Shown: in pieces, positions 16,080 through 24,854 of the stretch
Position numbering within the stretch: the first letter of the stretch is position 1
How the letters are laid out: each line of letters opens with the position of its first letter
Assembly (NCBI GenBank): GCA_018651745.1
Contig: JABIDL010000010.1
Coordinates: 1 to 64,000 of the forward strand
Source: Candidatus Neomarinimicrobiota bacterium
GTDB taxonomy: Bacteria; Fidelibacterota; Marinisomatia; Marinisomatales; TCS55
Length of the DNA: 64,000 bases
Direction: 5' to 3'
The notes under the pieces: model-generated
Databases searched by the model: none
The model's input: only the letters and a program-made list of their open reading frames with translations
What the model was told of the DNA's origin: nothing
Position numbers and translations under genes: made by a program

Positions 16080-16637
16080 TTAAAAATAGAAAAAATAGAA
16101 GACCAGGGGAATCAATACTCCGATCCCGGTTAGCCATGCGCCACGTCCGGTAATTCCTTTTTTTCCTTTTAATACGAACAACCCTGTTACAGCTAAGAAA
16201 ATAAGAACGATGGAAAAAATGTCAGCCATCCAAGTCCATAACTTTTTAGGATGATTCAAATGCAACGCATTAAATTCCTGTAAAATGGCTCTTTTTTGAA
16301 TACTTTCTAAAGATACATTTCCATTGGATAAATTTACATCAAGCGTTTTGTTGTTTAAAAATATCCTGATATTATTTGGATCTATCATGAACGTGGATTC
16401 AATTTTTTCATCTAAATCCAGAGACTGAAGTATTGCATTTATATCTTTTTCATTGGGTGGAAGACTAACATTTGAAACGTCAATTTGATGACGTGAATTT
16501 TCAATTTTATAACTTGGATTCCAGTCTGCAACATGGTTTACTGCAATCCCTGAGACACCATAGATTACCGTTAATCCAACTGCCAAATAACCCAAATCAC
16601 GGTGAAGTATGTTATTCCATTTCCTCCACTTCATCAT
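16080..16637 (-). CDS. PepSY-associated transmembrane protein
   Basis: 185 residues with an N-terminal membrane helix (about 16-35, with RDLGYLAVGLTVIYGVSG), a periplasmic loop of about 100 residues, and two C-terminal helices (about 135-155 and 165-185). The N-terminal HRDLGYL and the NALHLNHPKKLWTWMADIFS block are typical of PepSY-associated TM proteins, whose conserved histidines suggest haem or metal binding or electron transfer from reductants. Its ATG overlaps the DUF4920 stop by 4 bases, so the two genes are coupled. Substrate unknown. Confidence 0.75.
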   Translation of the reverse strand: MMKWRKWNNILHRDLGYLAVGLTVIYGVSGIAVNHVADWNPSYKIENSRHQIDVSNVSLPPNEKDINAILQSLDLDEKIESTFMIDPNNIRIFLNNKTLDVNLSNGNVSLESIQKRAILQEFNALHLNHPKKLWTWMADIFSIVLIFLAVTGLFVLKGKKGITGRGAWLTGIGVLIPLVFYFFYF

Positions 16638-17095
16638 TTATCAATGACTGCGCCAAGACCTCTTAATCGGTAAATGGTTTTATCTGATTCTGTTATTTTG
16701 TAAGAAGATTCATCAAATTTTTCACCAATTTCTTCCGCTTCATGCTTTTTCATTTTTAATGCTTGTTCATCTGAGAGAACTAATTTTTCTAGCGTTCCTT
16801 CTGCTACAACTTTTTTCCCTTTTGCTGTTACTGGGAATACAATAACACCGTCGTCCACTTTGACTTGAATAGTTTCATATTCTCGATCGCTTGAAACTTC
16901 AATCCAACACCCGCGCATTTTGCAAACATCAATAATAGTACCGGTGATTTGTACTTGTTTGTTTACATATGTTTCCGGTGCATCTAAAATGGATGAAACC
17001 GATGTGGGTGATTCAAGGGTAAACTTTTCCCCTAATGATTGCTGTGCAAACAAGATTGAAGATGAAAGTAGGATGATTGTAATGGAATGATGCAT
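16634..17095 (-). CDS. DUF4920 exported protein
   Basis: 153 residues with a signal peptide (cleavage after about residue 17, FAQQS). The core matches DUF4920: a beta-rich OB-like domain (QVQITGTIIDV, about 47-57) with the conserved CKMRGCW (about 58-64). The paired cysteines plus tryptophan resemble a metal- or redox-active site. Function unknown. It is coupled to the PepSY membrane protein and sits between the peroxiredoxin and YgbA-like genes, which fits a redox or metal-stress theme by inference. Confidence 0.8.
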   Translation of the reverse strand: MHHSITIILLSSSILFAQQSLGEKFTLESPTSVSSILDAPETYVNKQVQITGTIIDVCKMRGCWIEVSSDREYETIQVKVDDGVIVFPVTAKGKKVVAEGTLEKLVLSDEQALKMKKHEAEEIGEKFDESSYKITESDKTIYRLRGLGAVIDK

Positions 17096-17606: not shown

Positions 17607-18740
17607 TTACATTCCTTTGAATTCGGACATCATTTTTAGGAAATCATCTGACCAAACTTTAAAGTTGTCCCGTTCAATTTCTGCTCGCATGGTATCCATA
17701 AGCGATAGATAATATTTCAAGTTATGAAGAGAGGCAAGTCGTAGTCCGAAAATTTCATTTACATTTAATAAATGACGGATATATGATCTCGAATATTGGG
17801 CGCAAAGTGGACAGGAACAGGATGCATCCACCGGATCCAAATCAGTTTTAAAGGTTTCATTTTTCAAGTTCAATACGCCATTTGATGTAAACACTTGTCC
17901 GTTTCGAGCATTCCGTGTTGGAAGCACACAGTCAAACATGTCCATCCCAGCACGAACAGATCGTACTAGATCGGTTGGCCTTCCTACTCCCATCAAATAC
18001 CGCGGCTGTTTTTTTGGCAATGTTGAATCCAAGAATTCTATCATTTCAAACATGGCGCTTTTTTCTTCACCAACAGCCAATCCGCCAACGGCAATCCCGC
18101 ACGTCGATAATGGAACCAAAGCTTCCGCACTTTTAAATCTTAGATCCTCGAAAACGCTTCCCTGTACAATCGGAAATAATGTTTGATCCCAATCGTGGAT
18201 TGGACCGTACTTGGAAAGATAATCATTACAACGAATTGCCCAATCCGTCGTTCGATTAACTGCTTTTTGAACCGTTTTATAATCTGCATTCCCAATCGGG
18301 CATTCATCAAATGCCATAATAATATCCGACCCAAGTGATCGCTGAATTTCCATTGAAAATTCTGGCGTAAAATGATGACTGCTTCCGTCCAAATGTGACT
18401 GAAACTCAACCCCTTCATCGGAAATTTTATTCATCCTTGAAAGTGAATAAACCTGATAACCGCCGCTGTCGGTTAAGAGAGCACCCGGCCAATTCATAAA
18501 AGTGTGCAAACCGCCGGCTCGTTCAATAATTTTATGTCCCGGCCTCAAATAAAGATGATATGTATTTCCTAAAATTAAGTTTGATCCGAGTGAGGTCACT
18601 TCCTCAGGTGAAAGTGATTTAACAGCACCTTGTGTCCCAATCGGCATAAAAACTGGTGTTTTAATACTTCCGTGCTGAGTATCTAGCACGCCGGTTCTCG
18701 CTGATGTTCGAGAGTCCTGATGATTTACGGTAAATTTCAA
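17607..18740 (-). CDS. tgt: Queuine/preQ1 tRNA-ribosyltransferase
   Basis: 377 residues. It exchanges guanine-34 in GUN-anticodon tRNAs (Asn, Asp, His, Tyr) for preQ1. The substrate motif LTDSGGYQV, the nucleophile region FDECPIG, the GVGRP loop and DMFDCVLPTRNARNG are all present, as is the C-terminal zinc site CSCPLCAQYSRSYIRH. The only in-frame start compatible with the upstream stop is TTG at 18740, which gives the usual N-terminus. The tRNA-Asn(GTT) at 115-186 is a natural substrate. Confidence 0.96.
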   Translation of the reverse strand: MKFTVNHQDSRTSARTGVLDTQHGSIKTPVFMPIGTQGAVKSLSPEEVTSLGSNLILGNTYHLYLRPGHKIIERAGGLHTFMNWPGALLTDSGGYQVYSLSRMNKISDEGVEFQSHLDGSSHHFTPEFSMEIQRSLGSDIIMAFDECPIGNADYKTVQKAVNRTTDWAIRCNDYLSKYGPIHDWDQTLFPIVQGSVFEDLRFKSAEALVPLSTCGIAVGGLAVGEEKSAMFEMIEFLDSTLPKKQPRYLMGVGRPTDLVRSVRAGMDMFDCVLPTRNARNGQVFTSNGVLNLKNETFKTDLDPVDASCSCPLCAQYSRSYIRHLLNVNEIFGLRLASLHNLKYYLSLMDTMRAEIERDNFKVWSDDFLKMMSEFKGM

Positions 18741-18794: not shown

Positions 18795-21700
18795 TTACCA
18801 ATCATATCCCATAGAAAAAATCCATTGAGGACGAGACGTGGTAAATCCGGGTTCTATATCCCATGCTGCATCTATTCTGAATAAATAAAGGAACGGTATT
18901 TTTACGCCAACGCCGAATGTCGAAAAAACCGGTGAAAATGAATCCGGAATGGATGTTCCGTATTTGTCTTGCAACATTGATTGATCGTTGAATTCATCCA
19001 TAGAATCCCATGCAGCTCCAATATCCATAAATAGGATTCCATGGATGTTCCCAAAAATACCGCCGGAACCAAGCGCAATATAATCGATAAATGGAAACCT
19101 GAGCTCAATGTTTGCTAGCGCTACATTTTTCCCGTATCGTTCAGCAAATCGCGCACCTCTAAGGGGAAAAACATATTCTGATAAGTAAATATCTTCTAGA
19201 AATGTCCGGCTTGAATCAACAAGTAAATTCTGTTGCCATTGATTTGGATCTTGCTTACCGTTTGTTTCACCTAATCCTGCGAACCAAAGTCCATCTCCAC
19301 CAAGATAATATTTTTGCGGATCATTTCCAATACTTGCCCCCAATGTTAATCTTCCGGCAAGTGTTACCCTTCTAGAAATCCTTTGATATTTCCGTAGATC
19401 AATGGAAAATGTGGTAAAATTAAGGGTTTTGGATCCAATACCGGGACTGAACCGGATCGTTGAATTTGTTCTAAATCCATCAACCGGTCCGGTATATCCA
19501 TTTACGGAATTATCATAAATCCAACCGATATGCGGAGTTAAAATCGAAAAACCAAATGCGGTATCTAATGCAGTTGTATTGGTCCATGAATCAAGCTCAA
19601 AGAGGTCGTAATCAATAAAATTAAGAGATATCCCGCTTTCTAATCTGTTAAATCTATTAAACGGTCTCGATACATAACCGGATAATCCATAATGCCTGAG
19701 CCTACCAACAAGTTGATTCAAAAAACCAGTTTCTGGATAATACCGAATGCCTGCATCAAATAGGTTTGCGATATGGAACCCGGAAAGATAAAGATTGGTC
19801 CGATTTTTTAAATACGCGTAACTGAGATAATAATCGCTGTCTTTTAAGGTAAGCACCAGCTCGGTTCCCAAAATAATTTGATGATCACCCATAATATCAC
19901 TAAAGGCAAACATGGCCATCCCGGAAGCGCCAAACATGGTATTGTATGATGGATAGCCTGTGGCAATATCAAGTGAGAATTTCGTTTTATAGGACTGAGA
20001 AATATATCCGCCATCTTCGGTTCGCAAGCTGTCCAGCCCAGTAAATAAATCAACATCAGCTTCTTCATTATTATCTTGATTGTTATGAACATAATCGGGA
20101 GCAAAAATGTATCTGGCAAAATCCCTACCACGACCACGGCGACCACTTCTATTTTTATCCTGTCGCAAATCCGCGAGTACATCCCCATCAGTTTCTGCAG
20201 AAGTAATAAACCCTGTCACTGGAATGTCTTTTGTTTCAAGATTGCTCGGATTCGTTAAAGTAAATACATCCCAACCTCTATCAGTATATCCGGAAAAAAC
20301 CATCAATTCTCCGTTCGAAGAAAGACTGGGTTGAAAGATACCGGTCAAAACATTGGTAACCGTTTCAGCCGATCCGGTTGTCAAATCATGAGATACCAAA
20401 TTCCACACACCATTTCTATCAGAAGTAAAAAATAGTTTTTGAGATTGGTCAATCCAAATTGGACCGTTTTCATGATATTTTGTGGAAGTAATCCGAGACA
20501 TTGAACCGGATTCAATATTTAAGGTGTAAATGTCTCGTTGCCCATAATCGTGATCTACCATTTCAAATTCAGAATCTATCATTCCGAGCCGATCAGTTTG
20601 AAATTGATCTCCACGCGATGATACAAATGCAATTTCAGTTCCATCCTGATTCCATGCCGGATCAAAATCTGCAAAAAAATCATTTGTTAAATTTGTCAGC
20701 GTTTCGGTATCCAAATCATATATGTAAAGATCGCTGGAAGATTTATCATTACCAACAAACGCGATTTGGTTTTTTACAGGGTTCCACGCCGCAGTGAAAA
20801 TGCCGTCTAAATCAAAGGGGATCTTTTCTCTTTTGAGTGTTTTCACATCGATAATATAAAGTGCATCTTGTTTCCCGGATTTTGCTGCAAACACTATGCG
20901 TTCATTATCAGGTGCCCAAGATATTCCAGGTTGGAGGAATTTCAATTCTTCAAAATCTAAGGATCGGTTTCCCTTTACGAGCCGTTTTATTTCTGTCCCA
21001 TCAATCGCATCCAATAAATAAATATCTGTATGTCCCAGCCGATCACTTAATACCGCAATACGGCTACCATCCGGAGACAACGCCGGAGATAAATTCATGA
21101 AGTTTTTTTCCTTTTCATGATCCGTTAGACGTTTCGCGATATCTTCAATTTCATCCCTATCTTTCACGTCCGGCCAATATTCCTTCTTCAGATATTTATG
21201 CCATTGGTTAGTTAGATCTTCAAAATCCATTCCCAAAACACGCTTAAACCCTTTTTCTGTAGATTGGCTTGTGTGTATTTCCCAAAATATTTCCCCTATT
21301 TTTTCCCGTCCATACTTCTGGGCTATAAACCGCCATACCGATTGACCACCTTTATATGCTAAGAAATAATCCAATTCTTCAATGGCGGGAATATATTCGT
21401 TAATCGCAAGATCTCGTAAAATCATATCGGCTTCTGTGTCCCAATTCATAGACAAAAATTCTGCCAAACCTTCATTTGCCCAAAGAGGTAAGCGAGTTTT
21501 AACCTGCCGCGATACCATATTTTGCAACGACCCTCCATAAACCATATCATTAATCATTGCATGAACTAACTCATGGTGAATTACATGCCTAAATTGTTCA
21601 TAATTACCTTCAAAAGGAATGACAACTCTATTTTTATACAATTCTGTTACGCCACCAACGCCTTCCACCATATAAGCTTGTGTTACATTACTTTGCTGGA

Positions 21701-21980
21701 AATCGTTGTGGGATAGGTAAACAATAATGGAAACACGATCTTTCAGGGTCCATCTCAAATGTTTTGAAATCTGTTCATAGGAATTCTCAGCCTCTTCGGC
21801 AGTGAATTTTGCGATATGTTTTTCATCTTGATAATAATAAATATCAAAATGAGTCGAAGAGATAAAAGACCAATCGAAAACATTATACTGAACTTTATTT
21901 TGTCCGAAAGATTGGGCAAGCCCACCCTGAGCGAACAAGCAAAGGATCCAGATTAAATTGAGATGTTTCATTCTTTTCAT
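18795..21980 (-). CDS. Secreted metallopeptidase-like / beta-propeller / outer-membrane barrel fusion
   Basis: About 1060 residues with a signal peptide (LIWILCLFAQGGLAQ). Using the longest frame (ATG at 22007), residues 50-280 form a gluzincin-like domain with HELVH (145-149) and a downstream NEGLAEF (178-184) holding the third ligand, as in peptidase MA. Residues about 305-650 carry TolB/PD40-type repeats (LSPDGSRIAVLSD, WAPDNERIVFAA, WNQDGTEIAFVSSRG). The last about 370 residues look like a BamA/surface-antigen barrel, ending in FSMGYDW with the C-terminal aromatic. It is probably outer-membrane anchored. The substrate, and whether it cleaves anything, are unknown. ATG 21980 fits the signal peptide best. 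Confidence 0.75.
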   Translation of the reverse strand: MKRMKHLNLIWILCLFAQGGLAQSFGQNKVQYNVFDWSFISSTHFDIYYYQDEKHIAKFTAEEAENSYEQISKHLRWTLKDRVSIIVYLSHNDFQQSNVTQAYMVEGVGGVTELYKNRVVIPFEGNYEQFRHVIHHELVHAMINDMVYGGSLQNMVSRQVKTRLPLWANEGLAEFLSMNWDTEADMILRDLAINEYIPAIEELDYFLAYKGGQSVWRFIAQKYGREKIGEIFWEIHTSQSTEKGFKRVLGMDFEDLTNQWHKYLKKEYWPDVKDRDEIEDIAKRLTDHEKEKNFMNLSPALSPDGSRIAVLSDRLGHTDIYLLDAIDGTEIKRLVKGNRSLDFEELKFLQPGISWAPDNERIVFAAKSGKQDALYIIDVKTLKREKIPFDLDGIFTAAWNPVKNQIAFVGNDKSSSDLYIYDLDTETLTNLTNDFFADFDPAWNQDGTEIAFVSSRGDQFQTDRLGMIDSEFEMVDHDYGQRDIYTLNIESGSMSRITSTKYHENGPIWIDQSQKLFFTSDRNGVWNLVSHDLTTGSAETVTNVLTGIFQPSLSSNGELMVFSGYTDRGWDVFTLTNPSNLETKDIPVTGFITSAETDGDVLADLRQDKNRSGRRGRGRDFARYIFAPDYVHNNQDNNEEADVDLFTGLDSLRTEDGGYISQSYKTKFSLDIATGYPSYNTMFGASGMAMFAFSDIMGDHQIILGTELVLTLKDSDYYLSYAYLKNRTNLYLSGFHIANLFDAGIRYYPETGFLNQLVGRLRHYGLSGYVSRPFNRFNRLESGISLNFIDYDLFELDSWTNTTALDTAFGFSILTPHIGWIYDNSVNGYTGPVDGFRTNSTIRFSPGIGSKTLNFTTFSIDLRKYQRISRRVTLAGRLTLGASIGNDPQKYYLGGDGLWFAGLGETNGKQDPNQWQQNLLVDSSRTFLEDIYLSEYVFPLRGARFAERYGKNVALANIELRFPFIDYIALGSGGIFGNIHGILFMDIGAAWDSMDEFNDQSMLQDKYGTSIPDSFSPVFSTFGVGVKIPFLYLFRIDAAWDIEPGFTTSRPQWIFSMGYDW

Positions 21981-22181
21981 ACCAGTATGATTCAACATTG
22001 GTTCCATGACAGTAATTTACGAATTCCTGACATTATTTAATGGTTTCTAGTATTGAATTCGCCTTAGAATAATGAAGTCTATTTCTCTGACGGATTCACT
22101 GATAGAAAGTTAATATAGATGATCTAATTATCAATACAATTCAATTGACTCGATGGAACGAGGTTTTTAGTTTCCGTTGCT

Positions 22182-22922
22182 ATGGACTTACCCGTCTATT
22201 TTATTTCCGACATTCATCTCATGCTGGACAAATCCGAGAAGGAGAAAATTCGGCGCGAGAAACTATTCACCTTCCTCAGACAGGTAAGGTCAACAGGCGG
22301 CACCTTATTTATTGTCGGCGATATATTCGATTTTTATTTTGAATATAGAGATGTGATTCCAAAATCCTATTTCGATTTTTATCATGAATTATATCTTGTC
22401 AAGCAATCCGGTGTGGATATTCATTATATGCTGGGTAATCATGATTTCTGGGTTTTGGACTTTATTACAGAGGAAATCACAACACATACGTATTTTAAAG
22501 ACACTTCATTTAACATAAACGGAAAAACATTTTACATAACGCATGGCGATGGGCATCTTTCTTGGGATCGTGGGTACAGATTGTTAAAATCACTTATCCA
22601 GAGCAAAGCCTTTATTTGGCTTTATCGGTATCTTCACCCTAACATTGGGTATAAATTTGGCAAATGGATTTCCAAAAAGGGTAAACATTATGAACACGAT
22701 GATACTTATAACCGAAAGATATTAAACGATTTGAAGAAATTTGCTTCCAAACTTACGGAGAGCGGCACTGATTTTATTATATGTGGGCATTACCATCAGG
22801 CCACCATCACAGATATTGGTCCAGGTAAACTCGTTATTTTAGGAGATTGGCTTTCTATCTTCACTTACGGATTGTTTGATGGCAATGAATTTTCTCTCAA
22901 CACGTGGAAAAATGATGTGTAA
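22182..22922 (+). CDS. lpxH: UDP-2,3-diacylglucosamine hydrolase, LpxH type
   Basis: 246 residues of the calcineurin-like metallophosphoesterase family. It removes UMP from UDP-2,3-diacylglucosamine to give lipid X in lipid A synthesis. The five metal motifs are in order: SDIHL (9-13), GDIFDF, GNHDFW, HGDGH and GHYHQ. An LpxH assignment over other phosphoesterases rests on the motif spacing and length. It agrees with the KDO and LPS-export genes nearby. It begins a three-gene plus-strand unit. Confidence 0.85.
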   Translation: MDLPVYFISDIHLMLDKSEKEKIRREKLFTFLRQVRSTGGTLFIVGDIFDFYFEYRDVIPKSYFDFYHELYLVKQSGVDIHYMLGNHDFWVLDFITEEITTHTYFKDTSFNINGKTFYITHGDGHLSWDRGYRLLKSLIQSKAFIWLYRYLHPNIGYKFGKWISKKGKHYEHDDTYNRKILNDLKKFASKLTESGTDFIICGHYHQATITDIGPGKLVILGDWLSIFTYGLFDGNEFSLNTWKNDV

Positions 22923-24039
22923 GCAAATCGTTTTAATTTTATTGGCAGGAAGTGTTTTATCCTTTAATGGTTGTTCTAAGATAAAGGGATTATTCGGAAA
23001 GAAAGATGTTACTGCAGAAATTAGTTTTGATGAAGTGGAGCGACTACGAATGGCATATCAGGAAGGTAAAATTCAGGCGCTTGAAGAGCTCATCAGCATT
23101 TATCACGACTCAAACCAACCGTTTGATTTCAGAATCGCCGCCGGTAAAGCATTAGCAGAAACGCATCATCCTACCGCCTTAAATGCTATCGCTCAAACTG
23201 TGGCAGATGCTGAAGCGATGGATTTATCTTTAATGAACACCTCAATTGAGCTACTCGCAACGTTTAAAGATAATCCAAAGGCTGCTGATGCAATGGTTCG
23301 CGCAATGCACCAAGTGGAAGAAAAAACAAATGAACTACATATGGCACTCATCCGAAATTTGAATAAAGTGCGGACCAAAGATCAAGTGTTTGCGCTATTA
23401 GAATTATATGAAATAAGTAAAGCAAATTTGAACCGAACAGAAAAACTTTTGACGGAAACACTCGGTGCTCTCGGAACTGCAGAAGTTGTTCCGATTTTAC
23501 TTTCCATTTCTAAAGATCCGGAAATCAATGTTGGAATCCGAAACCGCGCCATAGAAATTCTGGGGAAAAAAGAACCGATGGAAGTAGCTACCGCATTCGC
23601 AGAACTGCTCGGAGATCCAAAAACCAATATGGAAGTGCGTGATTTTGCCTTTAATACGCTTGGCGGTGTGAAAGAAGAAAATCTGATACTTGCTCTGCTC
23701 CAGACTTACAATACGGGGAAAAAACAATACTTCAGCATGCTGAATACTGTATTAGACGCACTTGGAGAATTCAATGATGCAGAAGTGCGGCTTGCGGTAA
23801 CAGAAATTGCATTAAATGAGGATTATTCTCCGGCGCTCAGAATGAAAGCTATTCAAAAACTTGGTGAATTTGGTGACAAGAACGTCATCCCAAAACTGCT
23901 TAATGTTCTAGAAACATCAGATAATTATATTTATAGGAATGCCATTATCAGATCGCTGGATGCCATGGGAGAATTGGAATCACATGAACAAACATTGAGA
24001 CGATTGGCGTTTGAAGCGCATCTAGGAAAAACACAATGA
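22912..24039 (+). CDS. HEAT-repeat lipoprotein
   Basis: About 375 residues from ATG 22912 (or 22915), overlapping the end of lpxH. A signal peptide ends in a lipobox-like SFNGC. The rest is a ladder of about 35-residue alpha-helical HEAT/PBS-lyase-type repeats, each with a conserved RxxAIxxLG-like helix (for example IRNRAIEILG, ALRMKAIQKLGEFGDK). Such solenoids mediate protein binding. It is probably anchored in the envelope and interacts with the product of the next gene, with which it overlaps by 4 bases (ATGA). No enzymatic function is visible. Confidence 0.7.
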   Translation: MMCKQIVLILLAGSVLSFNGCSKIKGLFGKKDVTAEISFDEVERLRMAYQEGKIQALEELISIYHDSNQPFDFRIAAGKALAETHHPTALNAIAQTVADAEAMDLSLMNTSIELLATFKDNPKAADAMVRAMHQVEEKTNELHMALIRNLNKVRTKDQVFALLELYEISKANLNRTEKLLTETLGALGTAEVVPILLSISKDPEINVGIRNRAIEILGKKEPMEVATAFAELLGDPKTNMEVRDFAFNTLGGVKEENLILALLQTYNTGKKQYFSMLNTVLDALGEFNDAEVRLAVTEIALNEDYSPALRMKAIQKLGEFGDKNVIPKLLNVLETSDNYIYRNAIIRSLDAMGELESHEQTLRRLAFEAHLGKTQ

Positions 24040-24854
24040 TGAGACAAATTACTCTACTCACAACCCTAGGTTTTTTGCTGGCGCAGGAACCTCTAGACAG
24101 TCTAAACACCGATTCATTAAGCTTGCAAGATATACCATCCATTGATTCAGTTTCAGCCGGCGAGGGTTCAGATCCGATCGTTCCTATCCCACCTTTACGG
24201 TTAGAAGATGATAAAGAACCAATGCTAGAAATGGGTGATAAATTTTTTAATTTTGAACCCCGTATAGACAAACTTGAAAGTGAAATAGATTCACTTAAAA
24301 TGATGGTTAAATTTTACCAAAAATCTCAAGGTGTGCCATCCTTGGATGAAGCATTGCTCAACCTAATAAAAATCCCCCAACTCAGACATCGGGTTGAATT
24401 AACTAACGGAACGATTATTATCGGAGAATTGATTGAAGAAAATTTAGATTTTATCATTCTTCAGACCAGCCTTGGCCGTTTAAAAATTGATTCAGAAAAA
24501 GTATTACATATTTTCGAAGAAGAACCTGTAAGTGCAAAAATTGAAATATTTGGAGAACCTTTTGTAAATGCTTTCCCGGATAGAGAAGAAATTACCGGAA
24601 TGGTAAAAAATACAGGTAAATCCAGAGCAGATTTTGTACGTGTTATTGCAAATCTCTGGACCAAAACCACTGACATTGCCGGAAAAGATTCTTCTTTTGT
24701 CAGCGGAACCGAAATAACCTATTCCACCGGCGTAATAACCGATTCTGCATTAGAACCGGGCGCCACTACACAGTTTAAAGTTATTGTACCCTTATCAGAT
24801 GAAAATGATGTTGAATATCGGACCTACGACCTTCGCTGGGTCGAAACAGATTAA
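24036..24854 (+). CDS. Secreted protein: coiled coil, Sm-like unit, FxLYD-like end
   Basis: 272 residues with a signal peptide (about 1-17). It has a low-complexity acidic/proline linker, a short coiled coil (about 74-98, IDKLESEIDSLKMMV), then a Sm/SH3-like unit (119-160, LTNGTIIIGELIEE). The C-terminal beta-sandwich (about 165-270) is reminiscent of FxLYD-type domains (ITGMVKNTGKSRADFVRV). I do not recognise a named family. It is coupled to the HEAT lipoprotein and probably works with it in the periplasm. It ends 13 bases from the convergent argF. Confidence 0.6.
   Translation: MMRQITLLTTLGFLLAQEPLDSLNTDSLSLQDIPSIDSVSAGEGSDPIVPIPPLRLEDDKEPMLEMGDKFFNFEPRIDKLESEIDSLKMMVKFYQKSQGVPSLDEALLNLIKIPQLRHRVELTNGTIIIGELIEENLDFIILQTSLGRLKIDSEKVLHIFEEEPVSAKIEIFGEPFVNAFPDREEITGMVKNTGKSRADFVRVIANLWTKTTDIAGKDSSFVSGTEITYSTGVITDSALEPGATTQFKVIVPLSDENDVEYRTYDLRWVETD

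Follow-up and report, generated by a model that had tools for sequence, protein, structure and literature searches.

The window analysed here, a 64,000-nucleotide stretch of DNA from a Candidatus Neomarinimicrobiota bacterium (assembly GCA_018651745.1, contig JABIDL010000010.1, positions 1 to 64,000), encodes on its minus strand a fusion protein in which a signal peptide, a gluzincin-type metallopeptidase domain, a TolB-like propeller and a 16-strand barrel of the Omp85/BamA type follow each other in one chain. Our favoured, although tentative, reading is that the protein belongs to the Omp85 superfamily, lacks POTRA domains and serves outer-membrane biogenesis in a housekeeping capacity, receiving clients and controlling their quality. 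The barrel would be seated in the outer membrane; the propeller and the gluzincin domain would extend into the periplasm, where POTRA domains would otherwise be, and act as receptor and gate for clients, either unfolded outer-membrane proteins or lipoproteins. Clients could bind to the propeller and to the strand next to the active site of the peptidase; those that fold would be passed on, and the zinc site would cut those that stall or are faulty, or else a particular substrate. The protein would work like the Escherichia coli protease BepA, the propeller protein BamB and an Omp85 barrel in one chain, beside an independent BamA. The reading is supported by three confidently predicted domains, by invariant metal ligands, by the peptidase being the best conserved of the domains where the metal site is kept, by the near-universal presence of the gene, by its retention in all 12 streamlined genomes sampled and by the encoding of POTRA proteins in separate genes. 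The gene has the following features:

18795..22007, minus strand: uninterrupted open reading frame of the fusion protein, 1070 amino acids counting the stop, probably starting at 21980 (M10)
21915..21980, minus strand: signal peptide-like N-terminal stretch, residues 10-31 (sequence and predicted helix 9-24, judged by eye)
21138..21908, minus strand: gluzincin-type metallopeptidase domain, residues 34-290 (Pfam PF13485, separate AlphaFold2 model, fold matches)
21627..21665, minus strand: conserved pattern E115..G119-x-T121-E122..K125-N126-R127 in the loop and strand before the active-site helix (alignment)
21561..21575, minus strand: HELVH zinc motif, residues 145-149, with H145, E146 and H149 (invariant columns)
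21471..21473, minus strand: E179 of NEGLAEF (residues 178-184), the predicted third gluzincin-type metal ligand (invariant columns)
20214..21110, minus strand: TolB-like beta-propeller, residues 300-598 (PD40 repeats, TIGR02800, TolB fold match)
19980..20210, minus strand: linker of low predicted order, residues 600-676; F635 lies in a Y-I-F-A-like motif (low model confidence, alignment)
18798..19979, minus strand: 16-strand Omp85/BamA-type barrel, residues 677-1070 (strands of the AlphaFold2 model counted by eye; BamA and TamA fold matches)
19092..19166, minus strand: Omp85 L6 motif P-x-R950-G951...N966-x-E968-x-R970-x-P972 (conserved columns)

The probable true start is codon 10, as 45 of 47 aligned rows have a methionine there; an earlier note on this DNA proposed the same start, while its residue numbering does not fit that start, since the numbers (H145 and so on), which we retain, count from 22007 and not from 21980. 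The only cysteine of the signal stretch, C23, is preceded by W-I-L, which by eye is atypical for a lipobox. The full-length chain was modelled with AlphaFold2 from the window protein and 77 of the 80 homologues kept from a scan of a named-genome collection that yielded at least 545 related stretches; the model has a mean predicted local distance difference test score (pLDDT) of 85.3 and a predicted template modelling score (pTM) of 0.83. Pfam, this model and the fold matches agree with the earlier note as to the three joined domains and their order, and the barrel region, for which another fold had been the alternative, was modelled as a BamA-type barrel.

The peptidase domain is matched by Peptidase_MA_2 (PF13485) in a single-sequence Pfam scan (E 1.5e-11, cutoff passed) and, modelled alone, gives a pLDDT of 87.0 and a pTM of 0.86. 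Its top fold matches are a collagenase (Z 17.8, 230 aligned residues, root-mean-square deviation (rmsd) 3.4) and lugdulysin (Z 16.4, 227 aligned, rmsd 4.0), both exceeding the Z of about 13 below which the likeness of helical domains may reflect a mere common arrangement; M1 aminopeptidases come next (Z about 13-14.5). The best Foldseek E-value was 1.3e-4, and a profile search of the domain against PDB sequences gave no match at E<=1. We place the domain among the gluzincins by the fold of the predicted model together with the HExxH motif and a conserved glutamate downstream. H145, E146, H149 and E179, proposed earlier as the metal site, are invariant in all 70 rows from within the phylum, in all 78 rows of a set that covers Calditrichota, KSB1, Ignavibacteria and others, and at the aligned columns of 28 out of 28 further Bacteroidota loci (matches above 1000 bits), and they are lost only in one distant clade, described below. 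The invariance in the first two sets rules out a chance HExxH motif. The domain would, in our prediction, bind zinc and act as a peptidase. In the loop and strand preceding the active-site helix, E115, E122, K125 and R127 are present in 78 of 78 rows; the additional 28 Bacteroidota rows with the active form all retain K125 and R127, with E115 replaced by Q in four and E122 by D in 16. Mean pairwise identity, calculated for 46 of the 55 rows chosen for the tree discussed below, is 0.53 for the peptidase, 0.41 for the propeller and 0.39 for the barrel in the active rows, and 0.34, 0.28 and 0.34, respectively, in the rows devoid of the metal site. Judged by these identities, the peptidase is the most strongly constrained domain where the metal site is kept, and is constrained at the level of the barrel where the site is lost.

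As to the propeller, it is matched by PD40 (PF07676, E 2.5e-16, four stretches) and by the TolB model TIGR02800 (E 1.6e-40), with 139.3 bits against an equivalog cutoff of 343.15, and its fold corresponds to that of TolB (1c5k; Z 27.5, 243 aligned, rmsd 2.3). TolB and the fusion protein have the propeller fold in common, but the latter adds the peptidase and the barrel and scores below the TolB cutoff. In the linker that follows, pLDDT falls below 50 at residues 608-634 and 642-652; F635 is invariant in our alignment A2. The top Foldseek matches of the barrel are chains of the beta-barrel assembly machinery (BAM) complex and BamA barrels (E 9.1e-13 and 9.9e-13), and comparison with Deinococcus radiodurans BamA gives a Z of 24.5 (316 aligned, rmsd 4.8) and with TamA a Z of 22.2. 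With the single sequence, Pfam returned no barrel family at E<=10, PF01103 included, such a match being an aid to detection and not a defining trait. The assignment to Omp85 follows from the 16-strand barrel of BamA type and from the R-G pair of the L6 motif, located in the long loop (residues 894-960) that joins strands 11 and 12. The residue after this pair is alanine, giving RGA and not RGF/Y (the L6 motif is described as VRGF/Y in PMC12611786), and R950, G951, N966, E968, R970 and P972 are invariant in 78 rows. The Pfam scan of the fusion protein at E<=10 contained no POTRA domain, and residues 34-598 fold as peptidase and propeller. BamA and TamA, which share with the protein the 16-strand barrel, the L6 R-G motif and the fold, carry POTRA domains before the barrel, whereas here the peptidase and the propeller take this position. 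In BamA both termini are established to lie on the periplasmic side, and an even-stranded barrel of this type would leave both termini of the fusion protein in the periplasm too, which is consistent with the tethering of the peptidase by its own barrel suggested in the earlier note.

Two other roles for such a barrel have to be considered. It could merely anchor a peptidase performing ordinary periplasmic peptide turnover, a function to which the M1-type aminopeptidases among the fold matches would point; we regard this as quite unlikely, given that the barrel and its L6 R-G motif are conserved across phyla beyond the needs of an anchor and that the clade without the metal site retains the whole protein. 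The second role is suggested by PlpD, the patatin-Omp85 protein of type Vd secretion, which has a POTRA domain and, like the fusion protein, an enzyme domain N-terminal to an Omp85 barrel, although its enzyme is a lipase and not a peptidase, and it has no propeller. By analogy with this passenger-then-barrel order (PMC4104836), the barrel might export its own peptidase and propeller, threaded by means of the long disordered linker, to act as a surface protease. We find this quite unlikely, since about 560 residues are confidently folded, no POTRA domain was found, retention in streamlined genomes is unusual for a surface factor, and the barrels of BamA and TamA are described as closed to the outside (PMC4104836).

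A housekeeping role agrees with the distribution of the gene. It was found in 148 of the 149 sampled genomes of the phylum, the sole miss being a genome of 72% completeness. The Calditrichota group has it in 37 of 40 genomes, and the class to which the Ignavibacteria genome G165 belongs in 96 of 100; in the phylum of G165, matches exceed 1000 bits in 62 of 118 sampled genomes and reach E<=1e-60 in 78. All 12 genomes of the streamlined f2/g7 group (0.7-1.0 Mb) gave a match; in G148 it is cut by a contig end, and in G102 (L074) the frame is broken near the 3' end, by sequencing error or decay. Near-universal presence across several little-studied groups suggests a core function in the construction or surveillance of the outer membrane, and this distribution, together with a tree of largely taxon-like order, rules out a recent acquisition. 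Replacement of BamA by the fusion protein is not supported either, because POTRA domains are encoded by separate genes in all 61 phylum genomes searched (in the window's own genome, by an 814-amino-acid frame among others); among the POTRA matches listed, many fall several per frame of about 800 amino acids, as in BamA. Each of the four f2/g7 genomes in this search has five POTRA matches, which fits BamA alone, and no TamB was found in the three f2/g7 genomes searched for it. The fusion gene itself is matched once in nine of the 12 and two or three times in the others, among them G102 with its broken gene; with POTRA-less paralogues judged by these match counts, this group would retain BamA and the fusion protein as its main Omp85 proteins. 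Should the fusion protein be a core outer-membrane factor, several phyla of the Fibrobacteres-Chlorobi-Bacteroidetes (FCB) group would use an Omp85 with a propeller and a protease in the position of the POTRA domains of BamA, and a quality-control protease, a receptor and a barrel could share one polypeptide.

The clade devoid of the metal site (L245-L255) belongs to the phylum of G165. Its proteins have the same three-part layout (339-488 bits), but in 11 of 11 examined HExxH occurs nowhere in the protein, and the E179 column holds glutamate in only two. In the propeller and barrel tree of 55 chosen rows the 11 inactive ones form one branch, so that a single change of state suffices. Their long branch meets that of the outgroup, and without the outgroup they still lie on one side of a branch; they are either a sister group of the active rows as a whole or a lineage within Bacteroidota. 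Because the 11 genomes gave no match above 1000 bits, with at most six candidates scored per genome, the inactive form appears, from these scores, to stand in for the active one, the long branch making it a candidate for true orthology only. The clade represents a natural pseudo-peptidase.

Among characterized proteins, BepA (YfgC) is a soluble M48 protein with TPR repeats, whereas in the fusion protein a PF13485 domain is covalently joined to the propeller and the barrel; the Pfam scan of the protein at E<=10 contained neither M48 nor TPR domains, and the protein is a member of neither BepA nor BamB. The likeness to BepA lies in the predicted role, that of a periplasmic metallopeptidase acting beside an Omp85 protein (PMC8423444); in E. 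coli an edge strand of BepA by its active site is described to bind immature LptD on BAM (PMC8423444). In client quality control the likeness is a proposed analogy, by which the envelope quality control supposed in the earlier note would be plausible. According to PMC13067283, BamB arose within proteobacteria, so the fused propeller could fill its place in the phyla considered here. As for a BAM subunit known from Flavobacterium johnsoniae, this candidate was rejected, the terms propeller, TolB and peptidase having no occurrences in the main text of PMC12611786.

The closest published description is that of the WD40-Omp85 subfamily, named by Heinz and Lithgow (2014) and likened by them to a BamA-BamB fusion (PMC4104836). 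Like its members, the fusion protein has a TolB-like WD40/PD40 propeller N-terminal to an Omp85 barrel and no POTRA domain, and those members may include the family described here; what distinguishes our family is that the three-domain form is near-universal in the genomes sampled from several groups. The account of the subfamily in PMC4104836 (section 10) makes no mention of a gluzincin peptidase and gives no tested function, and our search of the literature, mostly without subscription journals and without the supplement of that paper, found no text describing the gluzincin form and the term WD40-Omp85 in PMC4104836 alone, in line with the earlier statement that related proteins have no described function. 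WD40-Omp85 fusions are known already, and the variant with a gluzincin peptidase would be new. An Omp85-metalloprotease class in the same paper rests on PF00149, which in Pfam is a calcineurin-like phosphoesterase; that class consequently differs from the gluzincin fusion, and its published name looks wrong.

Two genes flank the fusion gene in the window:

22182..22922, plus strand: LpxH-like lipid A phosphoesterase, divergent neighbour (PF00149, NF003743, TIGR01854)
17607..18740, minus strand: tgt, tRNA guanosine(34) transglycosylase, downstream neighbour (TIGR00430, E 2.7e-147)

The first of them scores under the equivalog cutoffs of NF003743 (E 1.3e-23) and TIGR01854 (E 8.2e-20). In loci with two or more upstream genes an LpxH-like gene was found nearby in 51 of 65 cases within the phylum and in 32 of 67 in the named collection, which reaches other phyla, usually as a direct neighbour of the fusion gene on the other strand. 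Of 26 Calditrichota loci, 25 of which have a next gene, 11 have mlaE immediately downstream, and in 10 of the 26 an mlaF-type ATPase gene, scoring under the MlaF equivalog cutoff, comes after it. In the class of G165, 22 of 48 loci have a TamB/AsmA-like gene on the same strand two positions upstream (-2; once -3), and 23 have RNase R at -1; for the active form elsewhere in Bacteroidota the respective counts are 21 and 22 of 28 loci, all 21 genes at -2 matching the profile of the G165-class set. Intergenic gaps are short in the subset of these loci that was measured. Since tamL and tamB are described as not being in one operon in Bacteroidota (PMC12045153), the occurrence of an Omp85 gene and a TamB/AsmA-like gene in one operon deserves attention. 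The name TamB/AsmA-like is used because the TamB match is patchy between neighbours and between tools: of eight such neighbours scanned directly with Pfam, L151, L185 and L256 match TamB, and L148, L194, L207, L265 and L283 do not, their similarity, where there is any, being of the AsmA or DUF748 type. Of these neighbours L148 scores above the AsmA cutoff, and six of the eight, scanned together, all show DUF748 similarity below cutoff. A genome search placed TamB at this neighbour in G252 (L207) and G296, with one match each, found none in G165 and G244, and gave for G234 a clear match on another contig; for G244 and G252 the results of the two tools conflict. Among the neighbour clusters listed for the inactive clade there is no TamB/AsmA-like gene, and 11 of 11 loci have on the opposite strand, at -1 or -2, a gene of the metallo-beta-lactamase fold (the family being named from one example).

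These neighbours allow another explanation, namely that the fusion protein is the outer-membrane end of a link between the inner and outer membranes: a TamB/AsmA-like protein would dock on the propeller or the barrel and deliver lipid or protein, MlaEF-type parts would feed the link in another lineage, and the peptidase would regulate or trim the partner. The gene order in the G165 class and other Bacteroidota, with RNase R between the two genes and short gaps, the direct TamB matches, those of the genome search at this neighbour in G252 and G296, the mla genes of Calditrichota and the LpxH-like neighbour in the window's phylum all speak for it. We nevertheless consider it unlikely. Only three of the eight scanned neighbours match Pfam TamB, with the tools in conflict on two genomes and the TamB of G234 lying elsewhere; in the window's phylum some TamB genes adjoin a POTRA protein of about 600 amino acids instead (G007, G018), and three streamlined genomes keep the fusion gene and show no TamB; other POTRA proteins are encoded in genomes that have the operon, and the neighbours differ between phyla. 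TamB as a general partner is thus not supported in the window's own phylum, and the linkage to neighbours, which is specific to lineages, is at most suggestive. A combination of the two readings is, in our opinion, similarly doubtful: the FCB group would have, beside BamA, a second universal housekeeping Omp85, POTRA-less, whose propeller and gluzincin domain together offer a docking platform in the periplasm, both to clients and to bridges of the TamB/AsmA-like or Mla type; the peptidase would license or destroy what is delivered, and one Bacteroidota clade would have made the peptidase a non-catalytic binding domain.

Several observations weigh against the role in client reception and quality control that we favour. 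The nameable recurrent neighbours point to lipid A and lipid transport and not to the BAM complex, although no systematic test of the neighbours for BAM genes was made. As there is no POTRA domain, insertase activity cannot be assumed. All 11 proteins of the inactive clade keep the fold without the metal site, so that proteolysis is dispensable there and is not the only job of the fold. Finally, the window's own genome contains two paralogues, P0002 and P0003, with a like layout by alignment and the motifs HELQH and HEFVH, which means that the layout may suit many jobs. P0002 passes the Pfam Omp85 cutoff (PF01103, E 6e-08) and P0003 does not match this family; neither matches Peptidase_MA_2 at E<=0.01.

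These two paralogues (L002 and L003, on contigs 22 and 26) are divergent, each with its own HExxH, and further types, of about 950 and about 1000 amino acids, occur in other genomes. A plasmid of Salinibacter ruber (NZ_CP030365.1, 81382-83043) encodes a protein related to the peptidase-propeller portion; it shares 31% identity with residues 21-576 of the query and carries the annotation basic secretory protein-like. In the window, the LpxH-like gene is followed at 22876-24854 (plus strand) by genes of a HEAT-repeat protein and of a protein without a Pfam match, which accompany it across many loci of the phylum. On the other side, tgt is probably functionally unlinked to the fusion gene, and at 16080-16637 and 16634-17095 (both minus strand) the gene of a PepSY-like membrane protein, recognized by eye, overlaps that of a DUF4920 protein.

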